A stretch of DNA of 64,000 bases. Origin: Sinonovacula constricta (Eukaryota; Mollusca; Bivalvia; Cardiida; Solecurtidae). Position numbers and translations under genes: made by a program. The notes under the pieces were generated by a model. The model was not told where the DNA came from. It ran no database searches and saw only the letters and a program-made list of their open reading frames with translations. The stretch spans positions 68,852,860 through 68,916,859 of the forward strand of contig CM017556.1 in NCBI GenBank assembly GCA_007844125.1, read 5' to 3'. Below are positions 14,901-38,900 of this stretch, piece after piece; the stretch's first letter is position 1, and each line of letters begins with the position of its first letter.

Positions 14901-17900
14901 AAAGACGAGTCTTGGAAGGACGTGTTTGCACCTCGATGTACCAAGTGATTCATTAGTTGAATGATCTGCGTAAAGATTGGGGGATAAAAAGGTCATTTAC
15001 ATGTAATTCATTAGTTGAATGAACTTTGTAAAGTTTGGTGGGGGAAAATGAATCAGTTACAAGGTATTCATTAGTTGGATGATCTTCGTGAAGATTGGGG
15101 ACCAAATGGGGCAGTTACAAGTAGTTCATTAGTTGAATGATCTGCGTGAAGATGGGGACAAAATGAAGCAGTTACAAGTGGTCCATTAGTCGGATGATCT
15201 GCGTGAAGATGGGGGACAAAATGGGTCAGTTACAAGTGGTTCATTTGTTGGATGAACTGCGTGAAAACTGGGGAGAAAATGTGTCAGTTACCCTTGGTCC
15301 ATTACTTGGATGCTCAGTGTGAAGATTTGGGACCAAATGAAGCAGTTACAAGTGGTACATTAGTTGGATTATCTGCGCGAATATGGGGGACAAAATGGAG
15401 CAGTTACAAGTGGTCCATTAGTTGGCTGATCTGCGTAAAGGTTGGGGACACAATGGAGCAGGTACAAGTGGTCCATAACTTGGTTGATCTTCGTGAAGAT
15501 TGGGGACCAAATGGGGCAGTTACAAGTGGTTCATTAGTTGAATGATCTGCGTGAAGATGGGGACAAAATGAAGCAGTTACAAGTGGTCCATTAGTCGGAT
15601 GATCTGCGTGAAGATGGGGGACAAAATGGGTCAGTTACACGTGGTTCATTAGTTGGATGAACTGCGTGAAAACTGGGGAGAAAATGTGTCAGTTACAAGT
15701 GGTCCATTACTTGGATGCTCAGTGTGAAGATTTGGGACCAAATGAAGCAGTTACAAGTGGTACATTAGTTGGATTATCTGCGCGAATATGGGGGGACAAA
15801 ATGGAGCAGTTACAAGTGGTCCATTAGTTGGCTGATCTGCGTGAAGATTGGGGACAAAATGGAGCAGTTACAGCTGGTTCATTAGTCGAATGATCTGCGT
15901 TAATATGGGGGGAAATGGAGCAGTTATAAGTGGTCCATTAGTTGGATGATCTGCGTGAAAATTGGGGACAAAATGGAGCGGTTACAAAGGGTTCATTAGT
16001 CGGATGATCTGCGTTAATATGGGGGGGAAAATGGAGCAGTTATAAGTGGTCTATTAGTTGGATGATCTGCGTGAAAATTGGGGACAAAATGGAGCGGTTA
16101 CAAAGGGTTCATTAGTCAGATGATCTGCGTGAAGATTGGGGGACAAAATGAAGCAGTTTCAAATGGTTCATTAGTTGGATGATCAGTGTAAAGATTGGGG
16201 ACCAAATGGAGCAGTTACAAGTGGTACATTAGTCGGATGAACTGTGTGAATATGGGGGACAAAATGGAGCAGTTACAAGTGGTTCATTAGTTGGATGATC
16301 TGTGTGAAGATTGGGGACAAAATTGAGCAGTTACAGGTGGATCATTAGTCGAATGATCTGCGTTAATATGGGGGACAAAATGGAGCACTTATAAGTGGTT
16401 CATTAGTTGGATGATCTGCGTTAATATGGTGGAGAAAATGGAGCAGTTACAAGTGGTCCATAAGTTGGATTATCTGCGCGAATATGGGGGACAAAATGGA
16501 GCAGTTTCAAGTGGTCCATTAGTTGGCTGATCTGCGTAAAGGTTGGGGACACAATGGAGCAGGTACAAGTGGTCCATAACTTGGTTGATCTTCGTGAAGA
16601 TTGGGGACCAAATGGGGCAGTTACAAGTGGTTCATTAGTTGAATGATCTGCGTGAAGATGGGGACAAAATGAAGCAGTTACAAGTGGTCCATTAGTCGGA
16701 TGATCTGCGTGAAGATGGGGGACAAAATGGGTCAGTTACACGTGGTTCATTAGTTGGATGAACTGCGTGAAAACTGGGGAGAAAATGTGTCAGTTACAAG
16801 TGGTCCATTACTTGGATTATCTGCGCGAATATGGGGGGACAAAATGGAGCAGTTACAAGTGGTCCATTAGTTGGCTGATCTGCGTGAAGATTGGGGACAA
16901 AATGGAGCAGTTACAGCTGGTTCATTAGTCGAATGATCTGCGTTAATATGGGGGGAAAATGGAGCAGTTATAAGTGGTCCATTAGTTGGATGATCTGCGT
17001 GAAAATTGGGGACAAAATGGTGCGGTTACAAAAGGTTCATTAGTCGGATGATCTGCGTTAATATGGGGGGAAAATGGAGCAGTTATAAGTGGTTTATTAG
17101 TTGGATGATCTGCGTGAAAATTGGGGACAAAATGGAGCGGTTACAAAGGGTTCATTAGTCGGATGATCTGCGTGAAGATTGGGGGACAAAATGAAGCAGT
17201 TTCAAATGGTTCATTACTTGGATGATCAGTGTAAAGATTGGGGACCAAATGGAGCAGTTACAAGTGGTACATTAGTCGGATGAACTGTGTGAATATGGGG
17301 GACAAAATGGAGCAGTTACAAGTGGTTCATTAGTTGGATGATCTGTGTGAAGATTGGGGACAAAATTGAGCAGTTACAGGTGGATCATAAGTCGAATGAT
17401 CTGCGTTAATATGGGGGACAAAATGAAGCACTTATAAGTGGTTCATTAGTTGGATGATCTGCGTTAATATGGGGGACGAAATGGAGCAGTTACAAGTGGT
17501 TCATTAGTTGGATGATCTGCGTTAATATGGGGGGAAAATGGAGCAGTTATAAGTGGTTTATTAGTTGGATGATCTGCGTGAAAATTGGGGACAAAATGGA
17601 GCGGTTACAAAGGGTTCATTAGTCGGATGATCTGCGTGAAGATTGGGGGACAAAATGAAGCAGTTTCAAATGGTTCATTAGTTGGATGATCAGTGTAAAG
17701 ATTGGGGACCAAATGGAGCAGTTACAAGTGGTACATTAGTCGGATGAACTGTGTGAATATGGGGGGAAAAATGGAGCAGTTACAAGTGGTTCATTAGTTG
17801 GATGATCTGTGTGAAGATTGGGGACAAAATTGAGCAGTTACAGGTGGATCATTAGTCGAATGATCTGCGTTAATAGGGGGGACAAAAAGAAGCACTTATA

Positions 17901-35900: not shown

Positions 35901-38900
35901 TCAGTTACAAGTGGTTCATTAGATGAATGATCTGCGTGAAGTTTGGGACAAAATGGAACAGTTACAAGTGGTCCATTAGTTGGATGATCTGCTTAAAGAT
36001 TGGGGACATAATGGAGCAGTCACAAGTGGTCCATTAGTTGGATGATCTGTGTGACGATTGGGGACAAAATAGAGCAGTCATAAGTGGTTCATTAGTTGGA
36101 TGATCTGCATAAAGATGGGCGACCAAATGGAGCAGTTACAAGGAATTCATTAGTTGGATGATCTGCGTGAAGATGGGGGACAAAATGATGCAGTTACAAG
36201 TGGTTTTTATTATAAACCTATTTATTTATGGTCGATTGGGAAACAAGTTCTTTTAACTTATATTAATCCCTCTCGACTGTCCACTTCCTGGGTAGAACCA
36301 GTACTCAGGTACTGAATACCTGGTGCAATGTGCAGTAAATAGTCTTGCTCAAGGACTTACATCACGTGGTCAGTTTCGGGGTTCGAACCCGGGACCCTCC
36401 GATCCGGAGTCCAACGTCTTAACCACTAGACCACGAACGCTCACGAAGTGGTTCATTAGTTGGATGATCTGCGTGAAGATTGGGGACAATATGAATCACT
36501 TAAAAGTGGATCATTAGTTGAATTATCTGCGTGGAGATTAGCGGACCAAATGAATCAGTTGCAAGTGGTTCATTAGTTGGATGATCTGCGTGAAGATTGG
36601 GACAAAATGGGTCAGTTACAAGGGATTCATTAGTTGGATGATCTGCTTGAAGATGGGTGACAAAATGTAGCAGTTACAAGTGGTTCATTAGTTGGATGAT
36701 CTGCGTGAAGATGGGGACAAAATGGGTCAGTTACAAGGGATTCATTAGTTGGATGATCTGCTTGAAGATGGGTGACAAAATGTAGCAGTTACAAGTGGTT
36801 CATTAGTTGGATGATCTGCGTGAAGATGGGGACAAAATGGGTCAGTTACAAGGGATTCATTAGTTGGATGATCATGATCTGCGTGAAGAATGGGGACAAA
36901 ATGTAGCAGTTACACGTGGTTCATTAGTTGGATGATCTGCGACGAATAGTTGTTTCATATTAATCGCATTGTGCACATATTACATAATAGACTCTACCTT
37001 TTTTCCTTCTGTAGTTGCGAGAGGGGGAACATAATTCTACCTACCTTGATTTCATCCTAAAGTTGCTAGACGATAAACACAGTTCCACCTACATTGGTTT
37101 TATCTTGTAGTTGCGAGACGATAAATACCGTTCCACCTACCTTGATTTTATCTTGTAGTTGCAAGACGATAAACATAGTTCCACGTACGTTGGTTTCCTC
37201 CTGTAGTTGCTAGACGATAAGCACACTTCCACCTTCCTTGGATTCATCCTGTAAGTGCAAGACGATGAACACAATTCCCCCAAACTTGGTTTCACCCTGT
37301 AGTTGCGAGAAGAAAATCACAGTATCATCTACCTTAGTTTCATCCTGTAGTTGCGAGACGAAACACACAGTATCATCTACCTTGGTTTCACCCTGTAGTT
37401 GCTAGACGATAAACACAGTTCCGCATACATTGGTTTTATCTTGTAGTTGAAAGACGATAAATACGGTTCCACCTTGCTTGGTTCTAGCTTGTAGTTGCAA
37501 GACGAAAAACATAGTTCAACCTACTTTCGTTTCATCCTGCAGTTGATAGACAATAAACACAGTTCAACCTAGCTTGGTTTCATCTTGTAGTTGCGAAACA
37601 ATTAACACAGTTCCACTAACCATGGTTTCATCCTGTAGTTGCGAGACGAGGAACATAGTTCCACCTAACTTGGTTTCATCTTGCAGTTGCGAGACGAGGA
37701 ACATAGTTCCACCTACCTTGGTTTTATCTTGTAGTTGTGAGACGATGAACAAAACTCCGCCGTCCTTAATTTTATCTTATAGTTGAAAAACGAGGAATAG
37801 CTTCAAATTCATTGGTTTTATTCTGCAGTTGCGACACGATAAACACAGTTCTACCTACCTGGGATTTATCCTATAGTTGCGAGACGATGAACACATTGTC
37901 ATCAGCCTTGGTTTTACAGTGTTGTTGCCAGCTGGTAAACACAGTTCACACCTGCATACACCTTGGTGTCATCCTGTTATTGGAAGACATTGAATACATT
38001 CCACCTACCTTGGGTTCATATTGTCGATTAACACCGTTCCATATACCTTGGTGTGATTTTGTAGTTGCGATACGATGAACACAGTTCCACATACCTTGGT
38101 GCCATTCTGTAGTTGTGAGACAATGAACAGAGTTCCACCTATCCTCGTTTCATCCTGTAATTGTGAGATGAACACAGTTCCACTCACCTTAGTTTCACCC
38201 TGTATTTGCAATTCGATTTACACAGTTCCACCTACATTGTTTTCATCCTGAAATTGAGAGACGATGAACAGCAGGGCCTTATCCACGGTTCCTTCTTTGG
38301 CTGTGATGATATCGGCACACACCTCGATCTCCGCTTCCTGGCGACCTATCAGTAACGTATTGGACTTCCATGCTACCTAGAAACCGACACACTAACTGAT
38401 ATAAGTGTTTACGGACAGACCTATACAGTCGTTATTGGGCAAACTATTCAGCAGAGAGGCAGGCTGATCTAAAGACACGAAGAACAAACGTATCAAAACA
38501 CTGTCTGCAGAAACAAACCTACATACAGACAGGTGGACATACGTTTCTATAAAGACACATACAATGTAAGGGACAAAGTGATTAGCTAAACAGATTGACA
38601 TACACATGTAAACGTATAGAAAAATGGCATTTTACACCTTTATTTAATTACCCTAATTCGAGTTGGTGACCATGAGGATTGCATCATGTCATCAGAGTGA
38701 CGGCAGAATGTTACCTCTACCTAGTTATAACGCATTTCGTCTGGGTTACCATATTGAACGCCAAAATGAAATATACATAATTTGAAGTTTAAACATGTCT
38801 AGAAATCAGCTATACCTGTTTCTGTAACTCATCAGAGGTCATGTGATCTTGAAGCTCTCGAGCCAAAGACGACATCCCATTTAGGAAATCCTCTGAAATT

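Follow-up and report, generated by a model that had tools for sequence, protein, structure and literature searches.

How can an intron come to consist almost wholly of copies of its own two splice junctions, and how could the real junctions still be found among them? The question arises in a 64,000-nucleotide stretch of the Sinonovacula constricta genome (assembly GCA_007844125.1, contig CM017556.1, forward-strand positions 68,852,860 to 68,916,859; hereafter the window), in intron 3 of a gene that is, by homology, a TRPV/TRPA-like ankyrin ion-channel gene on the minus strand. A sequence-only reading had proposed that nearly all of this intron derives from its own junctions, and this was borne out. 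Of the 23,270 bp, 21,728 bp are 58-bp units, 1,251 bp are 48-bp units, 248 bp belong to a short interspersed nuclear element (SINE) and one of its target duplications, and the remaining 43 bp are unrelated to either junction, giving a junction-derived share of 98.75%. We consider it very probable that intron 3 is a giant two-ended "mirage", in the sense of the amphioxus cases compared below, which most likely grew by junction-spanning tandem duplication and is predicted to be spliced out whole.

The intron, its arrays and its host gene

The exons and the parts of intron 3 are as follows, in the order of transcription (TRF, Tandem Repeats Finder; P0001, the Mercenaria protein described below; slash, splice junction).

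38816..38892, minus strand: exon 2, from located splice strings and reading frame
38236..38376, minus strand: exon 3, 141 nt, phase 0-0, ending DENN/GTAGGT; tblastn of P0001 residues 65-112 matches 38376-38233
36985..38270, minus strand: 48-bp donor array (TRF 36994-38270, 26.8 copies), whose outermost copy is the real exon 3 end
36942..36984, no strand assigned: intron core derived from neither junction, 43 bp, common to all five sister genes
36205..36445, no strand assigned: SINE-like insert in the acceptor array, 241 bp, with AAGTGGT target duplications at 36198-36204 and 36446-36452
14942..36941, minus strand: 58-bp acceptor array (TRF 377.5 copies), whose outermost copy is the real exon 4 start
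14860..14965, minus strand: exon 4, 106 nt, starting IIQLMNHL, an ankyrin repeat
12169..12307, minus strand: exon 5, from splice strings, reading frame and tblastn

Read on the minus strand, the 58-mer comprises 34 intron bases with a pyrimidine tract, ending CGCAG, followed by the first 24 bases of exon 4, and the 48-mer comprises the last 35 bases of exon 3 followed by 13 intron bases beginning GTAGGT. Alignment to the exon boundaries upheld the composition that the earlier reading had given for both units; its estimate of about 70 unrelated bases besides one SINE was too high, as 43 bp were found. The acceptor array parsed into 380 rows (372 near-complete and 8 partial); two of the 372, one of them with AG, are SINE sequence, as are some rows in the sister copies b and c introduced below. 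The junction AG was kept in 327 of the 372 near-complete rows. The consensus unit junction is AG/ATC, and the codon following the exon part of the unit is TAA in 300 of 369 listed cases. Among the 26 decoy donors, GT stands at the exact column in 17 (18 of 27 rows counting the real one) and in 18 if a 2-base shift is allowed; 14 of these 18 fit the donor consensus no worse than the real donor does. A 53-unit block of the acceptor array recurs with a match of at least 96% per unit. The 174-bp period reported by TRF was rejected as a higher-order repeat, with a similarity of 0.828 for units three apart and 0.837 for random pairs, and a search of Rfam gave nothing at the gathering cut-off.

The arrays at the junctions of intron 3 are real and beyond chance. 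When 90-base queries were taken across the 22 exon boundaries of the window, junction-spanning repeats were found at three: the exon-3 donor, the exon-4 acceptor and the donor of an exon in a neighbouring C1q gene. Non-self matches spanned the junction in 19/19 cases (best E value 1.3e-15), 351/354 cases and 12/12 cases, respectively, and 18 of the 22 boundaries had no non-self match at all. The exon-2 acceptor query gave eight, those shown being confined to the intron. Just upstream of that acceptor lies a 17-bp array (38910-39933, units like TTTAGGACAG), which we rejected as a junction array, the hits shown stopping short of the exon. Three of seven large arrays straddle one of the 22 boundaries (0.10 expected), an enrichment that is weak, as two of the three were preselected and the remaining five arrays alone give P 0.06. 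In another intron of the channel gene, distant from the exon edges found, there is a clean 49-bp array of 13 copies (7489-8124, 94%).

The identity of the host gene and the join of exons 3 and 4 were supported by homology. Frames and phases agreed over exons 2 to 7 in a reading by hand, and intron 3, with ends GT...AG, lies between exon 3 (38376-38236) and exon 4 (14965-14860). The hand-joined 618-aa protein matched 69 proteins, the best being an uncharacterised Mercenaria mercenaria protein (P0001; 57% identity, covering 96% of the query); clam, oyster, mussel and snail proteins came next, some of them named TRPV or TRPA. Ank, Ank_2 and Ion_trans domains are present in the homologues, and tblastn of P0001 and a second homologue (P0010) against the window recovered the channel exons with their order kept, in agreement with the earlier claim that the coding parts fit a channel protein. 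In an alignment of 47 of the 69 homologues (those with names being almost exclusively from molluscs, with one nemertean), the protein was continuous from ..DKALLFIVSQ.. to ..HRGANTSFQDSSLKTPLHYAV.. with zero inserted residues at the join. The join of 38236 to 14965 is well supported by these alignments, short of proof. Because mollusc homologues cross it uninterrupted, the exons are the likely source of the arrays.

Six sister genes and the probable growth of the arrays

We searched the 1.22-Gb assembly, in which the window lies on an 86-Mb contig, for further copies of the gene. An exon 4 query gave six matches, and a protein search located each of exons 3, 4 and 5 at six places and gave, in addition, one remote ankyrin match. 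Intron 3 measures 23,270 bp in the window copy (a), 27,195 bp in b, 21,096 bp in c, 1,454 bp in d, 3,191 bp in e and 2,816 bp in f. Near-complete 58-bp rows number 372, 436 and 344 in a, b and c; no 58-bp array was detected by TRF in d, e or f, where intron 3 consists of the 48-bp array, a short core and a single acceptor. All six copies carry the 48-bp donor array, and the core TAATATRTRCACRATGCGATTAATATGAAACAACT is common to the intron 3 of each. About 45 nt separate the core from the acceptor in d, e and f, a stretch that has no counterpart at the inner array edge in a, b and c. Exon 3 reads F..DENN in a, b and c, L..DENK in d, e and f, and L..DETK in the 48-mer consensus; the last exon-3 residue is K or R in 44 of 47 homologue rows (one Q, two gaps). 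A 401-bp query of array DNA gave one match, to the single acceptor of copy d (88% over 50 bp), among one of five candidates scored and with common words skipped. The channel and C1q genes are neighbours in a block that is present six times, in two clusters of the same contig (G000:C2, 68.82-69.03 Mb and 57.71-57.80 Mb).

This distribution suggests an order of events. As the donor array occurs in all six copies and the acceptor array in one branch, the donor array is likely older than the split between a/b/c and d/e/f. Gain of the acceptor array is favoured by the spacer of about 45 nt in d, e and f and by their L and K states in exon 3. The earlier reading took the exons as the source and the arrays as the derivative, a direction that gains support from the homologues crossing the join and from the three sister genes that combine the shared core with one acceptor. 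Flank identity between copies a and b is 0.985-0.998. The upstream flank of copy d is aberrant (0.775-0.805), and the place of this copy in the tree is therefore unsure.

The strongest rival, although an unlikely one, is loss: the ancestor of all six copies would have carried the 58-bp array, and d, e and f would have contracted. Arrays contract easily, the split between the two branches is unrooted by these data, and a near-repeat that e and f show 57 bp upstream might be what is left of an earlier unit. Nevertheless, under loss d, e and f would have had to regain the core-acceptor stretch; L and K, as in the 48-mer copies, are retained in their exon 3, K or R being the state in most homologues; and a clean reduction to one acceptor across the d/e/f branch is less simple than one gain.

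Under growth by duplication, tandem duplication across both exon edges would be the source of the arrays. The donor array would have arisen first. The acceptor array would have a single origin, in the common ancestor of a, b and c, for which the near-repeat across the acceptor may have been the starting point. This near-repeat pairs AACTGATGAA in the intron with AACTAATGAA in exon 4, 57 bp apart, and agrees at 10 of 12 bases in e and f, a level reached by 17 of 5,000 shuffles; as a seed of the first duplication it is suggestive only. Unequal exchange and segmental duplication within fixed edges would then have raised the acceptor array to hundreds of units. Comparison of the three arrays fits this picture. 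At the inner and the exon-side end alike, nine units correspond one-to-one with an identity of 0.91-1.0 (a vs b, a vs c). Stretches of six or more units alike at 0.95 account for only 72/372 units for a vs b, 25/372 for a vs c and 15/436 for b vs c. Copies a and b have 41 unit variants in common, of 256 distinct variants in a and 224 in b. The distance of the SINE from the array start is 496 bp in a, 496 bp in b and 490 bp in c; b has two further copies, at a spacing of 3,099 bp (L007-L009), which suggests that an array segment of about 3.1 kb was tripled. Unequal exchange and segmental duplication would explain the matching edges, the displaced short shared runs and the repeated SINE stretch alike.

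Predicted splicing and the remaining alternatives

We next considered how such an intron could be spliced. Splicing to an AG-bearing decoy acceptor was computed to give a premature stop before the end of exon 4 in every case: 326/326 in a, 397/397 in b and 319/319 in c, a total of 1,042. Partial rows were excluded from this count, in which about four rows are SINE sequence; including the partial rows gave 332/332 in a. The outermost acceptor alone kept the reading frame open, in all three copies. For the decoy donors, 15 of the 15 checked (rows with alignment insertions left out) give a stop six codons past the real junction. The 48-mer consensus is open in the exon frame, and the copy adjoining exon 3 (38222-38175) has a TAA, so that every downstream decoy donor checked runs into a stop.

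These computations suggest why the copies could be borne. Each new copy would fall within the intron, and exon 3 would end at its own nearest donor. Under exon definition, exon 4 would begin at the acceptor nearest its own donor, and the decoys would be left with no close partner site. If two decoys were spliced together, both real sites would survive; a splice between a real site and a decoy would be costly, through a premature stop and probable decay of the mRNA. The arrays may thus be tolerated because every new copy lands inside the intron. We predict that the outermost donor-acceptor pair is chosen by exon definition and that the copies are harmless. Recursive splicing uses AG/GT at each internal junction; we rejected it here, as the unit junction is AG/ATC in the consensus.

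Alternatively, the decoys might form a functional field that slows or regulates splicing, with premature stops tuning expression. All tested decoys would indeed give premature stops, 14 of 26 decoy donors fit the consensus at least as closely as the real donor does, and hundreds of units are present in three paralogues. However, the junction columns are not specially conserved, three sister genes manage without an acceptor array, and the stop past the junction follows from the TAA of the unit with no selection required. The 58-bp units match their consensus at 0.902 in the intron half and 0.899 in the exon half, and when the 58 columns are ordered from the least conserved upwards, the junction A comes 22nd and the junction G 37th. 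Neither column conservation nor the synonymous count gave clear support for coding or splice-site selection on the 58-bp copies, and beyond a modest synonymous skew, taken up below, they show no clear constraint in their sequence. A regulatory role is thus improbable, slightly more so than loss.

There is only a slim chance that the size of the array is an assembly artefact. The 53 consecutive units that match another stretch at 96% or more per unit can mislead assemblers; against this, the array recurs at three loci on one contig with differing sizes, matching edges and the SINE at the corresponding place.

We then examined whether the 58-mer is bound to this intron. An exact search for its 20-mer core CGCAGATCATCCAACTAATG gave 251 genome matches (89 forward and 162 reverse), and the reversed-pattern control gave 0. 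Intron 3 of the three expanded copies accounts for all 251 (62 + 100 + 89 in a, b and c), a confinement that fits an origin from the gene's own acceptor. Arrays at unrelated loci, as in a dispersed or centromeric satellite, were not found for exact copies of the core. The sequence-only reading had named abundance of the satellite at unrelated loci as evidence that would count against it; as far as this one 20-mer goes, the matches fell in the three introns alone.

Slimmer still is the chance that the satellite came first, a genomic satellite having inserted and later come to serve as exon edge and splice sites. As the final 34 bases of the intron and 24 coding bases belong to the array, sequence alone would allow either direction. 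Those 24 bases, however, encode an ankyrin segment aligned in 47 homologue rows, the exact core had no match outside the three introns, and the sister genes d, e and f have the same exon with no array. Finally, coding repeats extending exon 3 are the faintest of these possibilities for the 48-bp array: 48 is a multiple of three and the consensus is open in the exon frame, but the first copy has an in-frame TAA, all 15 decoy donors checked lead to a stop, and no homologue row has extra residues.

A C1q junction array, the wider reading and known systems

The third junction array lies in the neighbouring C1q-domain gene, in the following setting.

60492..60587, minus strand: coiled-coil exon of the C1q-domain gene, ending ..TLQRQL plus one base, then GTAAGTTAT
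59965..60511, minus strand: 39-bp junction array in 14 rows, one of them the real exon end, each unit joining the tail of the C1q exon to its donor
58657..59117, minus strand: C1q-domain exon after the arrayed intron

The real donor joined to the C1q exon gave an uninterrupted protein (Mercenaria homologue P0070, 62% over 99%), and each of the 8 decoy donors tested reaches a stop four codons into the sequence that it adds. In the five copies nearest the real donor, ATAAG stands in place of GTAAG, leaving the closest decoys with no GT. In a survey of C1q loci, 150 matches were scored and 30 were cut out, 6 of them channel-linked and 24 unrelated. The array was present in all six channel-linked members and joined to exon 1 in all four copies with that exon in hand. 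At the unrelated loci the closest approaches were these: an 88-bp repeat in L036 and L037 ends 101 bp before the domain, and a 314-bp duplication in L047 starts 38 bp after it. Arrays farther upstream at L044, L048 and L051 were not traced to any exon.

Several observations weigh against growth of the arrays by junction-spanning duplication, or narrow it. The confinement described above covers exact copies of one 20-mer, carried by 251 of about 1,150 units (about a fifth), and diverged 58-mer copies elsewhere would escape such a search. Loss in d, e and f is a real if minor rival because that branch has no outgroup root. The near-repeat across the acceptor was unsupported in d (reached by 848 of 5,000 shuffles), amounts to one weak observation because e and f are close relatives, and could equally be the relic of a lost unit. 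Changes in the exon part of the 58-mer are skewed towards synonymous ones (307 vs 253.9 expected), not flat as strict neutrality predicts; the count uses non-independent units, which can produce such a skew, and at least four occurrences were recorded for 9 of the 13 synonymous change types that are possible and for 31 of the 59 non-synonymous ones. The typed channel pieces gave Ank, Ank_2 and Ion_trans matches below the Pfam curated cut-offs. At the 24 unrelated C1q loci, no array overlapped the matched domain, so the process is not everywhere in the genome.

A broader reading is that splice junctions are nurseries of satellite DNA, yielding a gene-bound class through a ratchet from one copy to hundreds, with exon definition picking 1 of about 330 intact acceptors. 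We hold this to be possible, if somewhat short of probable. If it were true, a duplication across an exon edge would be shielded from selection because the spliceosome hides everything inside the outermost sites. The six sister genes would then show the acceptor before and after expansion, with the donor array already in all six, and the C1q neighbour would have started on the same path. Unexpanded and expanded states of one junction stand side by side in one genome, a situation lacking in the accessible parts of the amphioxus accounts. The case bears on how introns reach tens of kilobases, and on whether exon definition alone finds the real site among hundreds of near-identical decoys. As the copies keep older exon states (L and K, against the present F and N), junction arrays may also record past coding sequence.

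Two other features lie in the window. At 41700-47150 on the plus strand, open frames with gag-like, endonuclease, reverse transcriptase and RNase H resemblance presumably belong to a non-LTR (long terminal repeat) retrotransposon. At 47667-49100 and 52236-53666, about 3 kb apart, are two inverted copies of a frame that we take to be integrase-like with a chromodomain-like tail.

Introners, or mobile introns, are a class of repeated sequence tied to splice sites and found at many unrelated insertion sites. The 58-mer differs from these in not being dispersed, all 251 exact cores sitting at a single intron position of three paralogues. The name "mirage" and the alcohol dehydrogenase case reportedly go back to Canestro et al. 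2002 (NAR 30:2871). The comparisons that follow refer to the accessible parts of the papers cited. Amphioxus mirages are minisatellite-like duplications of intron/exon boundaries (PMC3087553; PMC3902484), so that, contrary to the sequence-only reading, which knew of no satellite class of such origin, one had been described. The amphioxus globin gene BflGb6 has 6 and 3 units of 150-160 bp in two haplotypes (PMC3087553); lancelet PGBD5 adds a further case, in an account that also mentions Adh and troponin C (PMC3902484).

Other intronic arrays and duplications are less close. In potato RdRp, an intron was gained by tandem genomic duplication (PMC4974935). The likeness lies in a tandem duplication within a gene with consequences for an intron; here, in contrast, the intron pre-exists, the six copies sharing its position and core, and no new intron is formed. 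Intron gain by this route was rejected, because d, e and f, which lack the acceptor duplication, hold the intron with the same core. VNTR6-1 in TERT intron 6 is alike in being a variable intronic array, of 38-bp units (PMC11830802), with no statement in the accessible text that the unit spans a splice junction. Within the literature searched, which omits most subscription journals, and in the parts accessible, we found no junction array of this size or from a mollusc.

The likeness to mirages is closer. As in amphioxus, tandem units span a splice junction at 5' or 3' boundaries, here at the exon-3 donor, the exon-4 acceptor and the C1q donor. Many but not all copies keep AG or GT (AG in 327/372, GT in 17/26), cluster edges are distinct from a homogenised middle, and copy number varies, here 372, 436 and 344 rows across three paralogues with edges set apart from a shuffled middle. 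Compared with the BflGb6 mirage, the unit count here is over fifty-fold higher, with 344-436 units of 58 bp that occupy about 20-26 kb. Further differences from the amphioxus cases as available to us are arrays at both intron ends, a mollusc host, sister genes with and without expansion in one genome, and the genome-wide confinement of exact core copies to this intron. Judged by its sequence, intron 3 has the testable features of a mirage, and what it adds is scale, arrays at both ends, a new host, the comparison among sister genes and confinement.

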